Source: Eximiradius sp. (GTDB lineage: Bacteria > Bacteroidota > Ignavibacteria > Kapaibacteriales > UBA2268). From it: a stretch of DNA of 64,000 bases. A model generated the notes under the pieces. It searched no databases. It had not been told where the DNA came from and saw nothing but the letters and a program-made list of their open reading frames with translations. Below, piece by piece: positions 42,800 through 50,370 of this stretch (positions are counted from its first letter, which is position 1; each line of letters starts with the position of its first letter). The stretch spans positions 1-64,000 of the forward strand of contig CAKZLY010000027.1 of the NCBI GenBank assembly GCA_937127445.1, given 5' to 3'. Made by a program: the position numbers and the translations under genes.

Positions 42800-43297
42800 T
42801 TATTCCGGAGCTTCCATTCCAAATTGTTTCCATTCTTCTTTTGATGGTCCATAAATACCGGTTACAGGTAGCCCAGCTTGCCGCATCAATACTGTAAGTT
42901 GCCCACGATGATGTATTTGATGATATACTAAGCCTTTCAATAATTCTTTAAACTTCCAATTTTCACCATAAACATTATATTCTTCATTTAATTTACTATT
43001 ATCAAAATTCTTAATTGTTTCGATTAATGAATCTGAGTACTTCTTGTATTTGTCAATCATAGCATTAATGTTGGAAGGTATTTTTTCTTGCAAGTCAAAA
43101 TCTGGAAGTTGAATTCCCGCAGCACTCATCATTTCTCCAACTGTAAAAACAATGTGCCACACAATTGTGCCAAGAGTACGCCCTTCATGATATACCTTTT
43201 GATTTAAAGATTTGTCTGTTATCAATTGAAAAAGTTTAATAGTTGCAGAGCTTTCTTGTGTCCAGTCGGCTATAAATTCATTAATTGTTGAGTACAT
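42800..43297 (-). CDS. DinB/YfiT-family metalloprotein
   Basis: A 165-residue four-helix protein of the DinB-like superfamily. The three metal-binding histidines appear as IVWHIVFTVGEM (about residue 48) and LVYHQIHHRGQLTVLMRQAG (about 130-149). Members include thiol-dependent transferases (bacillithiol or mycothiol) and DNA-damage-induced proteins of unknown role. It lies 19 nt after the cytochrome b gene on the same strand, so it may be part of that transcript, though a functional link is not obvious. Confidence 0.9.
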   Translation of the reverse strand: MYSTINEFIADWTQESSATIKLFQLITDKSLNQKVYHEGRTLGTIVWHIVFTVGEMMSAAGIQLPDFDLQEKIPSNINAMIDKYKKYSDSLIETIKNFDNSKLNEEYNVYGENWKFKELLKGLVYHQIHHRGQLTVLMRQAGLPVTGIYGPSKEEWKQFGMEAPE

Positions 43298-43316
43298 AAA
43301 AACATCCCTTTTGTTG

Positions 43317-44087
43317 TTATTTTAAGTTGTTATTTATTACTTCAATTTTATTTTCATTGTTATTCGATTCTTGCTTGGAAATATCAACCGATGAATTACC
43401 CGATTGTTCAGGTGCATCTTCATCAGAAATTTCAGAATTAGAAACATTATATTGATTATTATGCTCGATATGCAAATGCCAGCCATTTATCATAGATTTG
43501 AAATTTGCAGTAACAGTATCACCGTGTGTGGCAAGGTAAATATGCCCAATAAAAAACAAATTCAAAAAGAAACCAATTGTAATGTGGAGCAGTGCCATTG
43601 GCCAAACACCACCCATACCCATAATTTGTTCAGGAGCAAGTTCTGGAAACATAAGTAGCCAGCCAGAGATAATAATTCCCGGGACAGCTAAAAACATAAT
43701 CAAAAAATAAGTAAGTTTTTGAAGAGGATTAAATTTATTTTCTGGAGTGGTTTCGAAAGGATGAGGTTCACCCTTGAAAACACCCACTAAATAATAACGC
43801 ATTTGTTTTAAATACATCTCTTTAGCACCACGTAATTGTGGTATATATTGCTTATAATTTCTTGTTTTAATATTAAAAAATAAATAGTAAAGAAAAACAG
43901 CCGAAAGCAATATACCGCAAACATTATGAGTAACAATTGCGTATTCGAATGGCATCAGTAGTGAACTTGTATCGGAATACTGCATACTGACACCAGATAA
44001 TATCAGTAGAAAGAACAAAATTGCATTTATCCAATGCCAAAAACGCAACCAACGTGGGTACATATATACTTTTCGAACATTACTCAT
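43317..44087 (-). CDS. Membrane cytochrome b (quinone-linked)
   Basis: A 256-residue protein with four membrane helices and histidines placed for two b hemes: LRFWHWINAILFFLLILSG (about residues 14-32), IVTHNVCGILLSAVFLYYL, PMALLHITIGFFLN and FFIGHIYLATHGD. This resembles the gamma subunit of formate dehydrogenase and thiosulfate-reductase cytochrome b. After about residue 205 comes a polar, Asn/Ser/Glu-rich tail with no counterpart in the family. It overlaps the 13-heme gene by four bases (ATGA), so the two form a membrane module exchanging electrons with the quinone pool. Confidence 0.9.
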   Translation of the reverse strand: MSNVRKVYMYPRWLRFWHWINAILFFLLILSGVSMQYSDTSSLLMPFEYAIVTHNVCGILLSAVFLYYLFFNIKTRNYKQYIPQLRGAKEMYLKQMRYYLVGVFKGEPHPFETTPENKFNPLQKLTYFLIMFLAVPGIIISGWLLMFPELAPEQIMGMGGVWPMALLHITIGFFLNLFFIGHIYLATHGDTVTANFKSMINGWHLHIEHNNQYNVSNSEISDEDAPEQSGNSSVDISKQESNNNENKIEVINNNLK

Positions 44088-45556
44088 ACTTTTTTCTCCG
44101 TAATTTGTTTTCGTTTTATACTAAAATAAGCTCGAAGTGAAGCGTGAATAATAATTCCCAATAAAGTAAGCACAAAAATAGCAATACTTACCATATTTAG
44201 ATATAAGTTTCTTGTAACACCAATTACGTATGCATCAGAAAGAATAGTTCCATTGATAAAACCGTATTTCTCACGTGAAAGAGATTTCTGATGGCGATAT
44301 AATGTGTTCATAAGCATTGAATTCATAGAATGGCAAGTTTCACATCTCTTGACTGTTTTTTCTGGTGGCAAAATATCGTGAGAACGGTTAGGCGGTTCAA
44401 TTGAAGAATGACAGTCAATACAACGAACTCTATCCCAATGAGAACTGATACGTGGTAACCAACGATGAGCTTTATCAACTGTAGCAATACCATATTTGCT
44501 CATCATTTCTTCGTTAGCGTGACAAGCAACACAATAAACCATTTTATTATTGACTACAACATTGAATTTCATACCTGATTTTGTAAAAACTGCACTTGGG
44601 ATATCTGGAACGTGCTGAATATTATGTTCACCGTGGCAATAAGTACAGTTTGGCGCATCTGAATTTCGACTTAATAGAGATTTGCCATGAACACTTTCAA
44701 TATACTCAGTTGAAACTTCACTATGACAGGAATTACATACATTATGAATATTAAAATGGTTTATTCGAGATTCTGGATTAGAAGCTTTTTGAAGTTTATG
44801 GGTACCGTGACAGTCAACACACATAGCAGCCTTCGTATTCCCAGCTAATAAAGCAGAACCGTGAACACTTTTTTCATAATTAATTAGTGAGTTTGCATAT
44901 TGGCTCGATATAGAAGTAATGTGAAGGTGACAAGATAAACATAATTTTTCTTGATTTAATTTTTTTTCTAATTCAGAAATTTGATTTCCTTTTGTTATTG
45001 GTTGTTTGTGGCAATAGATGCAAGTTGGAGCATTAGGATTGTGAGCAACATACTGGATTGAGTGTTCAGATCGCAAATGGTCTTTTTTTATGTCGGAATG
45101 ACATTTACCACAAAATTCAGTAGAATTAGTAAAATGTAAAGGAGAATTAGGATCGCTGGGACTCTGAATATTGTGAGAGCCATGGCAACCTACGCAATTA
45201 ATATCTGCACCGCCCTTGCTTCCAGTTGCTTTTGCCATAGATGGATGCCAAGGATGCTTTCCTTTTAAATTCGAGTGGCAATTTGCACAATTGACACTCA
45301 AATCACCTTCTTTGTGAGGAATATCATCTGCTTTAAAACCAACGTGGCAATTTATACATAGCATTTTTGAGTGTACAGAACGAGCAATCTCGAATTTTCT
45401 TACGTGCAGTTTAACCTTACGGCCATTTTTTTCCATATAAATATCGGGATCGCTATGACAGCTCAAACAGTCATCGTTAGACTGAGAATTAGAATTTTGT
45501 ACACTAAAAGATACTATGTAGAAAAAAACTAATAATAGCGGCAAATATCTGTACAT
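44084..45556 (-). CDS. 13-heme c-type cytochrome with C-terminal membrane anchor
   Basis: The 490-residue exported protein begins with a signal peptide (MYRYLPLLLVFFYIVSFSVQ). I count 13 CXXCH heme-binding motifs: CLSCH, CINCH, CANCH, CVGCH, CGKCH, CIYCH, CLSCH, CVDCH, CNSCH, CTYCH, CVACH, CIDCH and CETCH. Many free histidines (such as EHSIQ, SVHGSALL, SVHGKSLL) can act as distal ligands. A single helix (MVSIAIFVLTLLGIIIHASL) near residue 460 anchors the C-terminus in the inner membrane, leaving hemes in the periplasm. It resembles large periplasmic cytochrome c3/c7-like wires. Its stop overlaps the start of the cytochrome b gene, its probable quinone-side partner. Confidence 0.93.
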   Translation of the reverse strand: MYRYLPLLLVFFYIVSFSVQNSNSQSNDDCLSCHSDPDIYMEKNGRKVKLHVRKFEIARSVHSKMLCINCHVGFKADDIPHKEGDLSVNCANCHSNLKGKHPWHPSMAKATGSKGGADINCVGCHGSHNIQSPSDPNSPLHFTNSTEFCGKCHSDIKKDHLRSEHSIQYVAHNPNAPTCIYCHKQPITKGNQISELEKKLNQEKLCLSCHLHITSISSQYANSLINYEKSVHGSALLAGNTKAAMCVDCHGTHKLQKASNPESRINHFNIHNVCNSCHSEVSTEYIESVHGKSLLSRNSDAPNCTYCHGEHNIQHVPDIPSAVFTKSGMKFNVVVNNKMVYCVACHANEEMMSKYGIATVDKAHRWLPRISSHWDRVRCIDCHSSIEPPNRSHDILPPEKTVKRCETCHSMNSMLMNTLYRHQKSLSREKYGFINGTILSDAYVIGVTRNLYLNMVSIAIFVLTLLGIIIHASLRAYFSIKRKQITEKKV

Positions 45557-45590
45557 AATTTTATCATAAGAAGTTTTACATATTGAAAAA

Positions 45591-45618
45591 AGTAGGTAGC
45601 AATAAATTGCTACCTACT
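45591..45618 (-). terminator. Strong terminator after the monoheme cytochrome gene
   Basis: AGTAGGTAGCA (45591-45601) and TGCTACCTACT (45608-45618) form a perfect 11-bp stem with a 6-nt loop, followed on the minus strand by TTTTTT. It lies between the monoheme cytochrome and the 13-heme gene, dividing the cluster into two transcripts, unless read through. Confidence 0.92.
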
Positions 45619-45626
45619 AGATAAAA

Positions 45627-45974
45627 TTATTCAGTTTTTAGAGTAGTCAACCACTCACTTATAATATTTAATTCTTCATCGCTGCCTTTGAACTGAGCAG
45701 GATGCTTTTTACCTTTTAAATCAGTTTCTTTTTTCAAATATTTTGCAAAGAATTCTGCATTGCCTTCAACAGAAGCATTTGACAAGTCAATTGCTCCTGA
45801 TTTTTTCTTGGAAGCAATTCCAAGAGAATTGATCGAATGACACATATCGCATTTTTGTTCGGTAAAAATTGTTTTGCCATCTTTTGCTTCTTCTGCATTT
45901 ACCGATGCATTGAAAGATGCAGCTGCAATAAAGGCAATTGCTACAACTGCTAAAAATAAATGCTTGATCTTCAT
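45627..45974 (-). CDS. Small monoheme cytochrome c without a Met ligand
   Basis: A 115-residue protein with a signal peptide (cleavage near NASVNAEE). The single heme motif is CDMCH in GKTIFTEQKCDMCHSINS (about residues 33-50), and the C-terminal helix is DEELNIISEWLTTLK. After the heme motif there is no methionine at all, so the usual His-Met ligation is impossible; a His in KKHPAQFKG is the likely distal ligand, predicting a low redox potential. AAGGAGG precedes the start. It is the third gene of the porin-Rieske-cytochrome transcript. Confidence 0.92.
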   Translation of the reverse strand: MKIKHLFLAVVAIAFIAAASFNASVNAEEAKDGKTIFTEQKCDMCHSINSLGIASKKKSGAIDLSNASVEGNAEFFAKYLKKETDLKGKKHPAQFKGSDEELNIISEWLTTLKTE

Positions 45975-46041
45975 AAAACCTCCTTATGAAAAAATATTCT
46001 ATATACAAAAGTAACGAATATATTATAAATTAGTTTCATCT

Positions 46042-46551
46042 TTATATTGCAATAGTTAAAGTATTATTAACAGGATCAAACACAGAATTATATTTTAATA
46101 ATGGAGGAACATCACCCGAAGCAGTCCCTTTATCTTTTAACAGTCCGTCTGAAGAAGAAAATTTAGCACTATGAGCAGGGCAATATATGTCTCCACCAGG
46201 AGAACTTGGTAGAAGTACTTGCGCACCAGCATGTCTACAAATTGAATCAAGAACAACAAATTTATTTTGTTCAATCCTGAAAATAATTAAAGGATTACCA
46301 TTATTTACTGGTTTATTGTTTTTGTCTCGCACGATTGTCATTATTATTCCACCAACACTACTTAATGCAGGATAATCGGATATTTTCAGAAGTGGATAAT
46401 TTTCTGGTTTGGGTTGTTCTGGTGGAGCTACAGTTTCGCCATCATTGTCGCAAGCAGTAAAAATCGAGCTTAGAACACAACCGCATAAGCCAATCCCAGC
46501 AATTTTTGCTGATTTAATCAAAAATTCTCTTCTATCATTATTTATTTCCAT
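46042..46551 (-). CDS. Rieske [2Fe-2S] lipoprotein
   Basis: The 169-residue protein has the Rieske pair CRHAG and CPAHS, separated by the expected 16 residues between His and Cys (about residues 108-130). The N-terminus carries a twin-arginine motif (DRREFLIKSAK) and a lipobox (IFTAC, about Cys34), implying Tat export of the folded protein and a lipid anchor. No cytochrome bc1/b6 gene is nearby, so it is either a partner of the local cytochrome b or an independent electron carrier. GGAGG precedes the ATG. It lies 12 nt after the heme-porin gene and 67 nt before the monoheme cytochrome. Confidence 0.93.
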   Translation of the reverse strand: MEINNDRREFLIKSAKIAGIGLCGCVLSSIFTACDNDGETVAPPEQPKPENYPLLKISDYPALSSVGGIIMTIVRDKNNKPVNNGNPLIIFRIEQNKFVVLDSICRHAGAQVLLPSSPGGDIYCPAHSAKFSSSDGLLKDKGTASGDVPPLLKYNSVFDPVNNTLTIAI

Positions 46552-46563
46552 TTCGCTTGCCTC

Positions 46564-47838
46564 CTAATAGAATATATGTAATTGAAATGCAAACTGAGAA
46601 TTGAATTTATCAACATGTTCACGGTCAAAAATCTTATATTCAGGGATCAAAGCTACATAAGGCAACAGAAATATTTTGGCTCCTAATGTATATCTATTAG
46701 CATGATATTTTGGATTGCCAGATGTTTGCATTTCTGTATTACCACGTTCAAAACGCAAATAAGCATAAGCAGGTTCAATCACTTGATAATTAAATTCAAG
46801 AGTAAAATTACTAGTAATTCTCCGCTGAGATAATTCTGTTCTCATATATTCTGTCATTACGGCAAATTTGCCTGGCATTCCAAAATGGAAGAAAATACTT
46901 GATGCAGTTAAGTAACGATTGCCAAAGTATATTCCATCATCTGTTTTGAGTGTGCTATTGAAAAAATGTGTTGCACCAAGGAATGAAGTCAGTCCAGTGC
47001 CAAAATCAGGTGGATGCAAAGTAATTTTTGCAAGTCCGGATAAAGTATTATCTTTTACAAATCCGTTTGTCATTTCCGATAAATTTTTCGAATCGAATAC
47101 ACCTAATGAAATGTCTGCCCATTCAAATGGTTCATAATCAAGAATTGCCCCTAATTCAAAATAATCACAAGGAATTGTTGGAGGGGTGAGCGTCTTAGTA
47201 ACAACTTGACGGGTCATTACTGTGTGGTCGTCCCAATCAGTTCCAATTGTTGCCTGCACCATTCCAATCCGCAGGGAAGGAAGTTTCTCAAATGGATGCA
47301 GGATTATGCTTGCGGTATAAGGTGTCTGTCCCGGATACCGCTTTTTATTTTCAATTTCGTAAGCTAAATTGTAAGATCCCTCTATAATCACTCCTTCAAT
47401 CGGTGTAATTGTAAGATATGGTGTTAATATCATCAACATATTGTCTCTTTTAGTTCCGTAAGGGTCAGTATAAGGAATAGTATCTTTAATATTTGGATCA
47501 AACAAGTTGTTATAAACAACAATTTTATTTTTAGTTGTGGGCCATCTAGCTGATTGATAGCGAAAATCAAGCCCGAATGTTACTTCGTCAGTAAATAAAG
47601 CGTTACTTTCTCTAATTGCATCGTAAGCTGGACTTATTCCCAAATCCTCCGGTTTAATCAAAGCAACATCACTGAAGGACATCCATCCAGACATATTACG
47701 TTGCAAGCCTATATTCGGTGCAACGTGGCAATTTTGACATTTTGTGCCGAACGATTGCAATATTGAATATTGCGGTCGGGCATTTGTTACATCAAATATT
47801 ATCAACAACATTAGACATGTTATCAGAATTTTCTTCAT
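46564..47838 (-). CDS. Predicted outer-membrane barrel with one CXXCH heme site
   Basis: The 424-residue product from MKKILITCLMLLIIF has a signal peptide, and soon after the cleavage site a heme-binding motif CQNCH (residues 34-38, in SFGTKCQNCHVAPNIG). The rest is made of amphipathic beta strands with polar turns (VTFGLDFRYQSARWP, MLMILTPYLTITPIEGVIIE, ANRYTLGAKIFLLPYVALIP) and ends FAFQLHIFY with an aromatic terminus, as in outer-membrane barrels. A barrel with its own heme could hold a cytochrome in the pore, similar in logic to MtrB/MtrA porin-cytochrome complexes but with no visible homology. It is the first gene before the Rieske and monoheme genes. Confidence 0.75.
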   Translation of the reverse strand: MKKILITCLMLLIIFDVTNARPQYSILQSFGTKCQNCHVAPNIGLQRNMSGWMSFSDVALIKPEDLGISPAYDAIRESNALFTDEVTFGLDFRYQSARWPTTKNKIVVYNNLFDPNIKDTIPYTDPYGTKRDNMLMILTPYLTITPIEGVIIEGSYNLAYEIENKKRYPGQTPYTASIILHPFEKLPSLRIGMVQATIGTDWDDHTVMTRQVVTKTLTPPTIPCDYFELGAILDYEPFEWADISLGVFDSKNLSEMTNGFVKDNTLSGLAKITLHPPDFGTGLTSFLGATHFFNSTLKTDDGIYFGNRYLTASSIFFHFGMPGKFAVMTEYMRTELSQRRITSNFTLEFNYQVIEPAYAYLRFERGNTEMQTSGNPKYHANRYTLGAKIFLLPYVALIPEYKIFDREHVDKFNSQFAFQLHIFY

Positions 47839-47924
47839 AAACTTCTCATAAAATTGCACAAAATGTGAAATGAAAAATAATTTAAAATATAACTATGGTT
47901 AACATTTACTTTATTAAAAATTAA

Positions 47925-47949
47925 AGGCTGCAAAATAATTTTGCAGCCT
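47925..47949 (-). terminator. Terminator after the hexaheme lipoprotein gene
   Basis: AGGCTGCAAAA (47925-47935) and TTTTGCAGCCT (47939-47949) form a perfect 11-bp stem with a 3-nt loop and a T-rich run on the minus strand. It separates the hexaheme gene from the porin transcript. Confidence 0.92.
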
Positions 47950-47967
47950 CATCCATCAAATAATAAA

Positions 47968-49056
47968 CTAATTCTTCAAATAAGCTAACCCATTTTTCAA
48001 AATTGCAAGTGTTAATCCAGGATTATGAGCACCATTGGAGCGATCTCTTGCAATGTATAGATAATTCAACAATACATCACCATCGGAACGAGGAATAACT
48101 CTTCTTTTGCCTGCTTCTTCGAGTTTAGCGTATTCTCCAAGAACATTATAGTCTGGATCGCCAGGATTTCCAGCAGTAGCAATCAACAAACCTTTGTCGA
48201 TGAGTAATTGACGGTATTCTGCAAGTAAAGTTTTGATCTCATTAGTCTTAGTTGTTGGAATACCCGATGGGTGGCAACTCCTGCAGGATTCAATAGTACT
48301 CATTTGAGCAACTGTCATCTTAAATGAATGCCCACCAGCTGCAGGTGCAGTCGGATTGCTACCCATATGGCAGCTTACACAACCTTTCGCAAGAACACTA
48401 TGAGGATTGCCTGTTGGATATGTTTCAGAACCTTCGATAAAATTCAAGCCTTTGCCTGCAAATACATTGGCAACTGTTCCATAGTGTGGTCCAAATCTTG
48501 AATACATTGCAGTAGAGCTTGCAGCTGTCAAAGTATCAAAATTTGGACTATTTCTTGCATACGAGCGAGCCTGATGGCAGGTAGCACACAAATTTCCTGT
48601 TTTGAAATCTACATTCCCATCAGCAGCAGAACCCTTGTAAATTAATGTAAATGGCTGAGTAATTCTTAATGCATAATCTGTTTCATCAAGATTTTTGTGA
48701 ATGTTGTGACAAGTTTTGCAATCAAGCGCTGTAATACCAGCTTGTCCCCAAGTATTTGTTGATGCCATCTTACGGAAACCATCTCCATTGTGGCAATCAC
48801 CACAGCCAGCACGACCAGCTGTGTAGGCATAAGTCTCGCCTGTTTTGTGTAGCGAGTAGTTAAATTGAGCAAATGCAAGATTCGTTGCAGTAGCATTGTC
48901 AGAGTGGCAAACGGCACAAGCGACGCTTGCGTCTTTGCCGTCTTTACCGTCTTTGCCTGCCGGCCCCTGTGGTCCTGCTGGTCCTTCAGGACCTTCGCAA
49001 GCAGTCATAAATAGAACAAATGCTACTACTGAAAGAATTGAAAACAATTTTTTCAT
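47968..49056 (-). CDS. Hexaheme c-type cytochrome lipoprotein with collagen-like spacer
   Basis: The 362-residue lipoprotein (lipobox FMTAC, Cys20) is followed at once by about seven Gly-X-Y triplets (GPEGPAGPQGPAGKDGKDG), a collagen-like stalk. Six CXXCH motifs come next: CAVCH, CGDCH, CKTCH, CATCH, CVSCH and CRSCH, with extra histidines (SLHKTG, IHKNLDE, GPHYGT, GGHSFKM) as possible distal ligands. No known catalytic motif is seen. A lipid anchor and stalk would hold the heme domain away from the membrane, probably the outer one. It stands alone between a strong promoter-side region and its own terminator, just upstream of the porin-Rieske operon. Confidence 0.9.
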   Translation of the reverse strand: MKKLFSILSVVAFVLFMTACEGPEGPAGPQGPAGKDGKDGKDASVACAVCHSDNATATNLAFAQFNYSLHKTGETYAYTAGRAGCGDCHNGDGFRKMASTNTWGQAGITALDCKTCHNIHKNLDETDYALRITQPFTLIYKGSAADGNVDFKTGNLCATCHQARSYARNSPNFDTLTAASSTAMYSRFGPHYGTVANVFAGKGLNFIEGSETYPTGNPHSVLAKGCVSCHMGSNPTAPAAGGHSFKMTVAQMSTIESCRSCHPSGIPTTKTNEIKTLLAEYRQLLIDKGLLIATAGNPGDPDYNVLGEYAKLEEAGKRRVIPRSDGDVLLNYLYIARDRSNGAHNPGLTLAILKNGLAYLKN

Positions 49057-49392: not shown

Positions 49393-50370
49393 ATGAAAAG
49401 AAAACTACTATTGATTATCTTGATTTTAATGAGTTGTTACTCATCTGTATTAGCATATCAAACAGAAAATTTGCCTACTAATGACACTTCAAATGTATCT
49501 GAAGAAAATGACTTTTTTGAAGATGACGACGTCAATAATCCATTGTTAGATATATTTACATCTGCACTTAGATTCAAACAATACAAGCCATCGAAAAAAT
49601 TACGATTAGATTTCTATAAAAATTCACCTACAATATATTTAGGTTACGGTGTAACAAATCATTTTTATGAAAGAAATACTTTCACTTCTAAAATTAACAA
49701 TAATGGAATAATTGACATCAAACTTGGTTCTACTGATTTATACCGTGCCACTTCAAATGTTGTTGAATATGATAATGATTATTTGTCATTCAGTTATGCT
49801 GAAAATAAAATAAATTATGAAGAAAACGGTTATAGTAATAATCATATGGGCTTGCGACACTTTAAGCTAAGCTTGAATAATTCAGATGGTTATGGATGGA
49901 ATTTAGGTGGCAACTCACATATAGTGCTATTCCATAGTTCAGGAATAAATTGGAATAACCTATCATTTGACTATGATAATGCTGATAGTGCCTCAATTAA
50001 ATCGGCTAAAATATTTGGTAAACAATTAAGATATGGTCGCGGTTTTGCAGGCGGAGTAAAGATATTCTTAGTCAATGGTGTTGCAATTTCAGCTGAATAT
50101 GAACAAACTATGACTTTTCCACGTCATTTGTTCTGGAAGGATCTTGGAGCATTTATTATTGAGGCTGTTGCTCAGGGATTATCTACCAATTTTGTTGATG
50201 AAGTGCTGGATAGTTCTCCTAAATTTGCTCCAGTAATTCATTTTCTACTTAAAAATGGAATTTCTTATGGTTTTTATGAACTTTATAGAGACAAGATGAA
50301 TTGGCCATTCAAAACTACACCACCATTAATGAACAAAACTTACAAAATTGGCATAGATTTTATTTTTTAA
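49393..50370 (+). CDS. Hypothetical outer-membrane protein
   Basis: A 325-residue protein with signal peptide MKRKLLLIILILMSCYSSVL and an acidic stretch (EENDFFEDDDVNN) after cleavage. The rest alternates beta-strand patterns (PTIYLGYGVTNHFYER; YGWNLGGNSHIVLFHSSGIN; GVAISAEYEQTMTFP) and ends KIGIDFIF, a terminal aromatic. No family is recognised. It is divergent from the hexaheme gene and convergent with clpX. An outer-membrane barrel is inferred. Confidence 0.65.
   Translation: MKRKLLLIILILMSCYSSVLAYQTENLPTNDTSNVSEENDFFEDDDVNNPLLDIFTSALRFKQYKPSKKLRLDFYKNSPTIYLGYGVTNHFYERNTFTSKINNNGIIDIKLGSTDLYRATSNVVEYDNDYLSFSYAENKINYEENGYSNNHMGLRHFKLSLNNSDGYGWNLGGNSHIVLFHSSGINWNNLSFDYDNADSASIKSAKIFGKQLRYGRGFAGGVKIFLVNGVAISAEYEQTMTFPRHLFWKDLGAFIIEAVAQGLSTNFVDEVLDSSPKFAPVIHFLLKNGISYGFYELYRDKMNWPFKTTPPLMNKTYKIGIDFIF

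Follow-up and report, generated by a model that had tools for sequence, protein, structure and literature searches.

A conserved six-gene set built around a heme-fused porin in Kapabacteria, a probable modular conduit for electrons across the cell envelope

Six adjacent redox genes on the minus strand of a 64 kb window, the whole stretch of DNA analyzed here, probably encode a modular trans-envelope conduit that mainly exports respiratory electrons outward (probability of about 0.6). The host is a Kapabacterium, represented by a 2.45 Mb assembly that is 99% complete. In the direction of transcription, the genes encode a stalked hexaheme lipoprotein, an outer-membrane porin fused to a heme domain (the heme-porin or barrel), a Rieske lipoprotein, a monoheme cytochrome, a 13-heme cytochrome, and a cytochrome b, with 6, 1, 0, 1, 13, and 0 CXXCH motifs, respectively. 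An earlier reading of the same DNA, hereafter the original prediction, had located the six genes correctly and had counted at least 22 c-hemes; the motifs sum to 13 + 1 + 1 + 6 = 21 c-hemes, accompanied by probably two b-hemes and one [2Fe-2S] cluster. No CXXCH was present in any other stop-to-stop frame longer than 60 aa in the window. In the set, a Cyc2-like barrel, a type known for iron oxidases, is combined with a multiheme chain on the quinol side, with a Rieske lipoprotein, and with a surface cytochrome on a stalk, which would give Kapabacteria a route to minerals or partner cells. Protein classes, clustering and co-occurrence, the porin fold, and the swapping of end modules around a constant core were computed.

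Conservation of the set was surveyed in 60 genomes, 36 of the same family and 24 of other families of the order. All six genes were contiguous and in the same order in nine genomes from seven genera (G000, G002, G007, G008, G011, G020, G022, G027, and G031). The 13-heme gene occurred in 24 of the 36 family genomes and in none of the 24 surveyed from other families. The hexaheme-type barrel was found in 21 of these 24 and in 0 of the other 12 family genomes, so that every family genome with such a barrel (21/21) also carries the 13-heme gene (Fisher p=3.6e-7, kinship of genomes ignored). In the three family genomes with a 13-heme gene and no barrel, the gene lies on short contigs. G033 has no more than a fragment of the barrel, located where a contig ends and at a distance of about 1 kb from its 13-heme gene, and G034 has the barrel and lacks the hexaheme gene. 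Searching related genomes for the set and its order, a check suggested with the original prediction, thus found the genes unscattered. As the outer set (hexaheme, barrel, Rieske, monoheme) is separate from the inner set (13-heme, cytochrome b) in some relatives, the genes fall into two cohesive modules, which in most cases lie side by side.

Named records were retrieved from the contig collection with the 13-heme alignment, as the barrel sequences vary too much over their full alignment for this purpose. Fourteen named records contain the six-gene set, among them the closed chromosome CP058732.1 and MS-B_bin-24; in one of the 14, the contig stops inside cytochrome b. Of the named relatives of the 13-heme protein, the best were Kapabacteria records, some labelled Ignavibacteria or Bacteroidetes, and the record titles mention, among others, reactors, groundwater, Lake Pavin, and Chocolate Pots. 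CP058732.1 (Ch6) has been described as a sulfate-reducing, oxidase-bearing Kapabacterium, probably one species with Ca. Thermonerobacter thiotrophicus, and the words multiheme and extracellular electron are absent from its paper (PMC7509429). A literature search for extracellular electron transfer, or for multiheme cytochromes, in Kapabacteria found nothing relevant, and none of the papers retrieved assigns extracellular electron transfer to this group.

Partners at both ends of the set are exchanged in relatives. One of them (G030, L049:4526-10943) retains the heme-porin, Rieske, and monoheme genes, with a bc-type cytochrome b, its own Rieske, and an 11-heme cytochrome as inner partner, and with an EB_dh heme-binding-type lipoprotein in the hexaheme slot. 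This is a non-orthologous swap of both the quinol-side and the surface module around the heme-porin/Rieske/monoheme core. In other families of the order, the heme-porin lies beside a small membrane protein, a YceI protein, and a Rieske, and sometimes also near a protein with one CXXCH and a T9SS sorting domain. In Ignavibacteriia, it adjoins a one-heme protein of ~230 aa sharing a CHVNPNGGG.RN-type motif (L167, L168, L169, L170, L172, and L180). The single neighbour of this kind that was scanned (L167) carries Temptin and T9SS sorting domains, and these proteins are possible surface redox partners. The heme-porin is the constant element, and it is partnered by redox proteins that would lie on one or the other side of the outer membrane. 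Surface lipoproteins are also swapped among Geobacter conduits (PMC6148476).

The heme-porin (46564..47838, minus strand; ~424 aa from the ATG at 47838) carries its CXXCH in the N-terminal part, ahead of a barrel of the 16-strand type. Sequence searches of Pfam, NCBIfam, and the Protein Data Bank gave no match for it. Its AlphaFold2 model is a barrel with a mean pLDDT of 79, and structure comparison placed OprO (4rjx, Z 24.7) and OprP (2o4v, Z 24.5) as the closest solved folds. At the level of this model, a porin fold nearest to the 16-strand OprO/OprP is confirmed, which agrees with the heme-bearing barrel of the original prediction. Among 52 barrels of Kapabacteria and Ignavibacteriia, the CXXCH, R48, G52, M137, D205, and H206 (in DDHT) are invariant, in the numbering of the 425-residue model, whose start is one codon before the ATG. 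H206 and M137 are the candidate distal ligands of the porin heme. The signature of these barrels is C-x-x-C-H and then a Gly-rich R(N) motif, together with the invariant DDHT and Met.

The fusion of one N-terminal c-heme to a porin is shared with Cyc2, an iron oxidase for which AXPXFAR[Q/K][T/Y] has been defined as a motif and OprO/OprP have been named as templates (PMC8406198). Neither defining Cyc2 motif is present in the heme segment of the window's barrel, ARPQYSILQSFGTKCQNCHVAPNIGLQRN. Five residues before CXXCH, where Cyc2 has AXPXFAR[Q/K][T/Y], the window reads ARPQYSILQSFGTKCQNCH, and at the place of PXL, four residues after CXXCH, it reads CQNCHVAPNIGLQRN; it differs further in its Gly-rich R(N), DDHT, and Met and in being embedded in a multiheme/Rieske/cytochrome b set. 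Profile similarity nevertheless extends over the full length. The full-length hhalign values were 100% between the window barrel and Ignavibacteriia barrels, 95-96% (95.1% in the direct comparison) between the window barrel and Cyc2-motif proteins, and 98.3% between Ignavibacteriia barrels and Cyc2-motif proteins, where the Cyc2 side consists of Cyc2-motif proteins of this order rather than characterized Cyc2 itself and the E-values are those of single pairs. On the barrel part alone, the three sets gave 72%, 44%, and 92%. The reversed-sequence control gave 0.1-0.4%. The yardstick for the Cyc2 motif was a protein of the same genome (L123, 1275-2486, minus strand, AIPAFARQYRLSCQTCHAPAPRL) together with proteins of relatives. 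By these profiles, the heme-porin is a remote member of Cyc2's fused cytochrome-porin superfamily, with common ancestry at the superfamily level. The original prediction had seen no match of the combination to Mtr, Omc, or Cyc2; for Cyc2, this stands as far as the diagnostic motif is concerned and gives way for the barrel as a remote superfamily relative.

The hexaheme lipoprotein (47968..49056, minus strand; 362 aa) has a lipobox with Cys20, a collagen-like stalk (GPEGPAGPQG..), and six CXXCH, bearing out the stalked lipoprotein that had been predicted. Six other His are invariant among 20 homologues, some of which have a last heme motif of CX4CH or with one Cys. Its C-terminal half resembles NrfA and structure 6i5b (NrfA/OcwA superfamily), the latter being presumably OcwA. 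Entry 6i5b is mentioned in the OcwA paper (PMC6703420). The periplasmic 13-heme cytochrome (44084..45556, minus strand) is held by a C-terminal membrane anchor, a hydrophobic segment at 450-480. In the alignment of its homologues, all 13 CXXCH are invariant and no fewer than 13 further His are near-invariant, with His471 of the anchor in addition. A fold search of the Protein Data Bank returned nothing for it at E<=0.001, the top match being HAO (E 0.027, TM 0.10). In the periplasmic monoheme class I-like cytochrome c (45627..45974, minus strand; PF00034), the "Met-less" character noted earlier holds: there is no conserved Met ligand, and H91 stands at its usual place in 16/16 homologues, which predicts His/His ligation. 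The number of conserved His equals or exceeds the number of hemes in all three proteins, which fits bis-His, low-potential hemes throughout the predicted wires, without a catalytic heme. The hexaheme protein lacks the CXXCK of the NrfA active-site heme, and together with the absence of a significant fold match for the 13-heme protein this leaves the candidacy of either as a known reductase, which would have spoken against the original prediction, unsupported.

The inner end of the set is a four-helix cytochrome b of the b561 type, a quinone-facing subunit (43317..44087, minus strand; PF01292 E=1.5e-27). Its four conserved His (H18, H54, H168, and H182) fit two b-hemes, in line with the b-hemes of the original prediction. 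In most relatives, the cytochrome b is a ~735 aa fusion with a NapC/NirT-type hexaheme domain, and such domains are typical of quinol-oxidizing modules. Fusions of the CbcL-like kind, with 18-19 hemes and a cytochrome b, were also observed (L038:2-2221, L041:1835-4693, L077, L080, and L097), often directly downstream of the 13-heme/cytochrome b pair.

The Rieske protein (46042..46551, minus strand; PF00355 E=1.5e-8) is the sole Rieske family match in the genome. Its C-x-H ... C-x-x-H ligands, Tat RR motif, and lipobox are all conserved in homologues and support the lipoprotein originally predicted. The extra disulfide Cys pair is missing, as are the Ser and Tyr of high-potential clusters after the second Cys-x-x-His, and by established Rieske chemistry the potential would be lowered. 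A link between the loss of the disulfide and multiheme clusters was rejected, as a large minority of cluster-type Rieskes retain both extra Cys. From the lipobox Cys onward, many homologues read C-E-[KQR]-D-E. These acidic residues were considered as a possible Bacteroidota surface-export signal, and the Rieske is assigned to neither side on their account.

As compared by gene content with its published description, extHIJKLMNOPQS of Geobacter sulfurreducens is the nearest known gene set, a conserved cluster that unites a porin, a Rieske, a cytochrome b, and several multiheme cytochromes (PMC5877670, PMC6148476). The combination is therefore not without precedent, contrary to the original prediction, which had proposed a new system and found it unlike Mtr, Omc, and Cyc2. 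The ext cytochromes have 4 to 12 hemes (PMC5877670), and the predicted exposed part is a non-cytochrome lipoprotein, with surface lipoproteins swapped between species (PMC5877670, PMC6148476). The ext cluster differs from the window set in its heme-free ExtI, in gene numbers, heme counts, and order, and in ExtO/ExtP, which are reported as bc-complex homologues. What sets the window genes apart from ext is a barrel that is fused to a heme domain and related to Cyc2, along with the conserved core of heme-porin, Rieske, and monoheme. CbcBA and CbcL of Geobacter, in which a membrane cytochrome b unit and a multiheme c-type cytochrome oxidize quinol for extracellular respiration (PMC12307469), are similar at the level of protein type, whereas the window set puts 13 hemes on a separate anchored protein. 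Mtr and Pcc share an outer-membrane barrel with a surface multiheme lipoprotein, but the barrels of Mtr, Pcc, and Mto are larger (26 strands in MtrAB/MtoAB, PMC8406198) and heme-free with a separate multiheme plug, whereas the window barrel is small, bears a CXXCH itself, and can be aligned along its length with porins of 16 strands. A cytochrome bc or b6f complex does not fit either: the cytochrome b belongs to PF01292, not PF00033, and the Rieske is a Tat lipoprotein in place of the membrane-anchored one of such complexes; a true bc module occurs in the relative L049. OcwA and NrfA both align with the hexaheme lipoprotein in its C-terminal heme region, but this lipoprotein has six hemes and a collagen-like stalk and lacks CXXCK. 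The set as a whole appears to be undescribed and made of recognizable kinds of parts.

We infer the direction of flow, the order of hand-over, the membrane side of the Rieske, and the acceptor as follows. Quinol would be oxidized by the b561-type cytochrome b, which, judging from its family and the gene pairing, would pass electrons to the adjacent anchored 13-heme cytochrome. The latter may carry them over the periplasm to the His/His monoheme cytochrome, which could dock on the heme plugged into the 16-strand porin. This heme, probably ligated by His206 or Met137, would move electrons across the outer membrane and hand them to the Rieske lipoprotein, to the stalked hexaheme lipoprotein facing outside, or to both. 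From there they would reach an extracellular acceptor, for example a mineral with Fe(III)/Mn(IV), another cell as partner, or a shuttle. The conserved order, module co-occurrence, swapped ends, and His numbers at or above heme numbers uphold the dedicated trans-envelope route of the original prediction, of which direction and outlet stay at the level of inference. Outward flow is favoured because the quinol-side modules in relatives are of NapC/NirT or bc type and the wires are His-ligated.

Several points weigh against this outward conduit. The window genome lacks the NapC-like domain that relatives fuse to the cytochrome b; a PF03264 search of it returned only an NrfH-like gene and the c554-like gene at contig C4. 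PF01292 cytochromes serve quinone-reducing enzymes as well. The nearest characterized relatives of the barrel, the Cyc2 proteins, run inward, and a Rieske is unusual in a reductive outer-membrane route. The AlphaFold2 model of the heme-porin is weak at the heme segment (residues about 18-55), and support for the outward conduit is computational throughout.

The same parts could work in the opposite direction, as in Cyc2, Mto, or Pio pathways, with Fe(II), a mineral, an electrode, or a partner cell as the source of electrons, which would enter through the hexaheme protein and heme-porin and pass by the monoheme and 13-heme proteins to the quinone pool or a caa3-type oxidase. Inward flow is conceivable because the barrel's remote relative Cyc2 is an iron oxidase (PMC8406198) and the genome holds a heme-copper oxidase, together with an alternative complex III identified by inspection of the sequence; a separate protein that has the true Cyc2 motif and is encoded next to a multiheme cytochrome (L123) makes it plausible for the organism. 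This distinct Cyc2-motif gene is, however, already available for that role, low potentials are suggested by the conserved His in all three c-type wires (monoheme, 13-heme, and hexaheme), and relatives have a NapC/NirT-fused or a bc-type module at the quinol side, so inward flow is considered unlikely. Less likely again is a surface or periplasmic enzyme, in which the hexaheme protein reduces a small molecule such as nitrite or a sulfur or selenium oxyanion and the porin serves as channel or anchor without long-range transfer. The relation of the C-terminal half to NrfA and OcwA would suit it, as would the weak nitrite reduction by OcwA (PMC6703420) and the effect of Geobacter extI on selenite and tellurite reduction (PMC5877670). 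Yet the hexaheme protein has no CXXCK heme, its six hemes are matched by six further invariant His, which leaves no heme site obviously open, the porin carries its own conserved heme, and the genome has a separate NrfHA-like pair. That the genes are mere neighbours without joint function is very improbable: two terminator-like sites would split the set into three transcripts and the two modules are separate in some relatives, but order and co-occurrence are conserved across genera.

Beyond the outward conduit itself, a broader proposal is put forward tentatively, at somewhat less than even odds. The heme-porins of Kapabacteria and Ignavibacteriia may be a separate branch of fused cytochrome-porins with its own signature, acting as a general outer-membrane gate that exports to interchangeable surface redox proteins, a Rieske relay among them. 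If so, this would be, to our knowledge, the first Cyc2-like barrel in a reductive pathway. The joining of a Cyc2-like barrel to swappable parts at both ends suggests that single-heme barrels may be general outer-membrane gates for either direction. The set would also make testable the suggestion that an Fe-S protein may be the exposed lipoprotein of a conduit (PMC6148476).

Terminator-like hairpins lie between the hexaheme and heme-porin genes (47924..47950, minus strand) and between the monoheme and 13-heme genes (45591..45618, minus strand), which makes the three transcripts of the original prediction plausible; nine terminator-like sites were found in the region, compared with 3.9 +/- 1.6 expected. 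The interval 42800-49056 drawn for the system holds for the six genes and not for its first part, as the DinB-family gene at 42800-43297 is retained beside the set in the closest relative only and is outside the electron-transfer set. On the other side, 49393-50370 encodes a divergent protein of 325 aa, predicted to belong to the outer membrane and matching no family, which adjoins the hexaheme gene in two close relatives as well (80% and 44% identity).

Genes of the same genome outside the window were examined by family searches and in selected stretches. Further apparent outlets are an NrfHA-like pair, an octaheme cytochrome, and an alternative complex III with a caa3-type oxidase, named from the look of the sequence where no family search was run. 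The Cyc2-motif protein on contig C4 (L123:1275-3813; AIPAFARQY..CQTCH..PRL) is a second fused cytochrome-porin beside a tetraheme c554-like cytochrome, a possible pair for Fe(II) oxidation or uptake. Contig C28 encodes an 896-aa protein with a polytopic membrane part and eight CXXCH, of which Pfam sees the cytochrome c parts only (L127:7940-10627), and a 13-heme class III-type cytochrome in a Hmc/Qrc-like arrangement beside what look by sequence like NrfD-like and Fe-S proteins (L128:1857-5197). On contig C15, an octaheme cytochrome (PF11783) occurs with a small cytochrome b-like protein and membrane genes that resemble YeeE/YedE on inspection (L125:8286-11042), a locus possibly involved in sulfur oxyanion metabolism.

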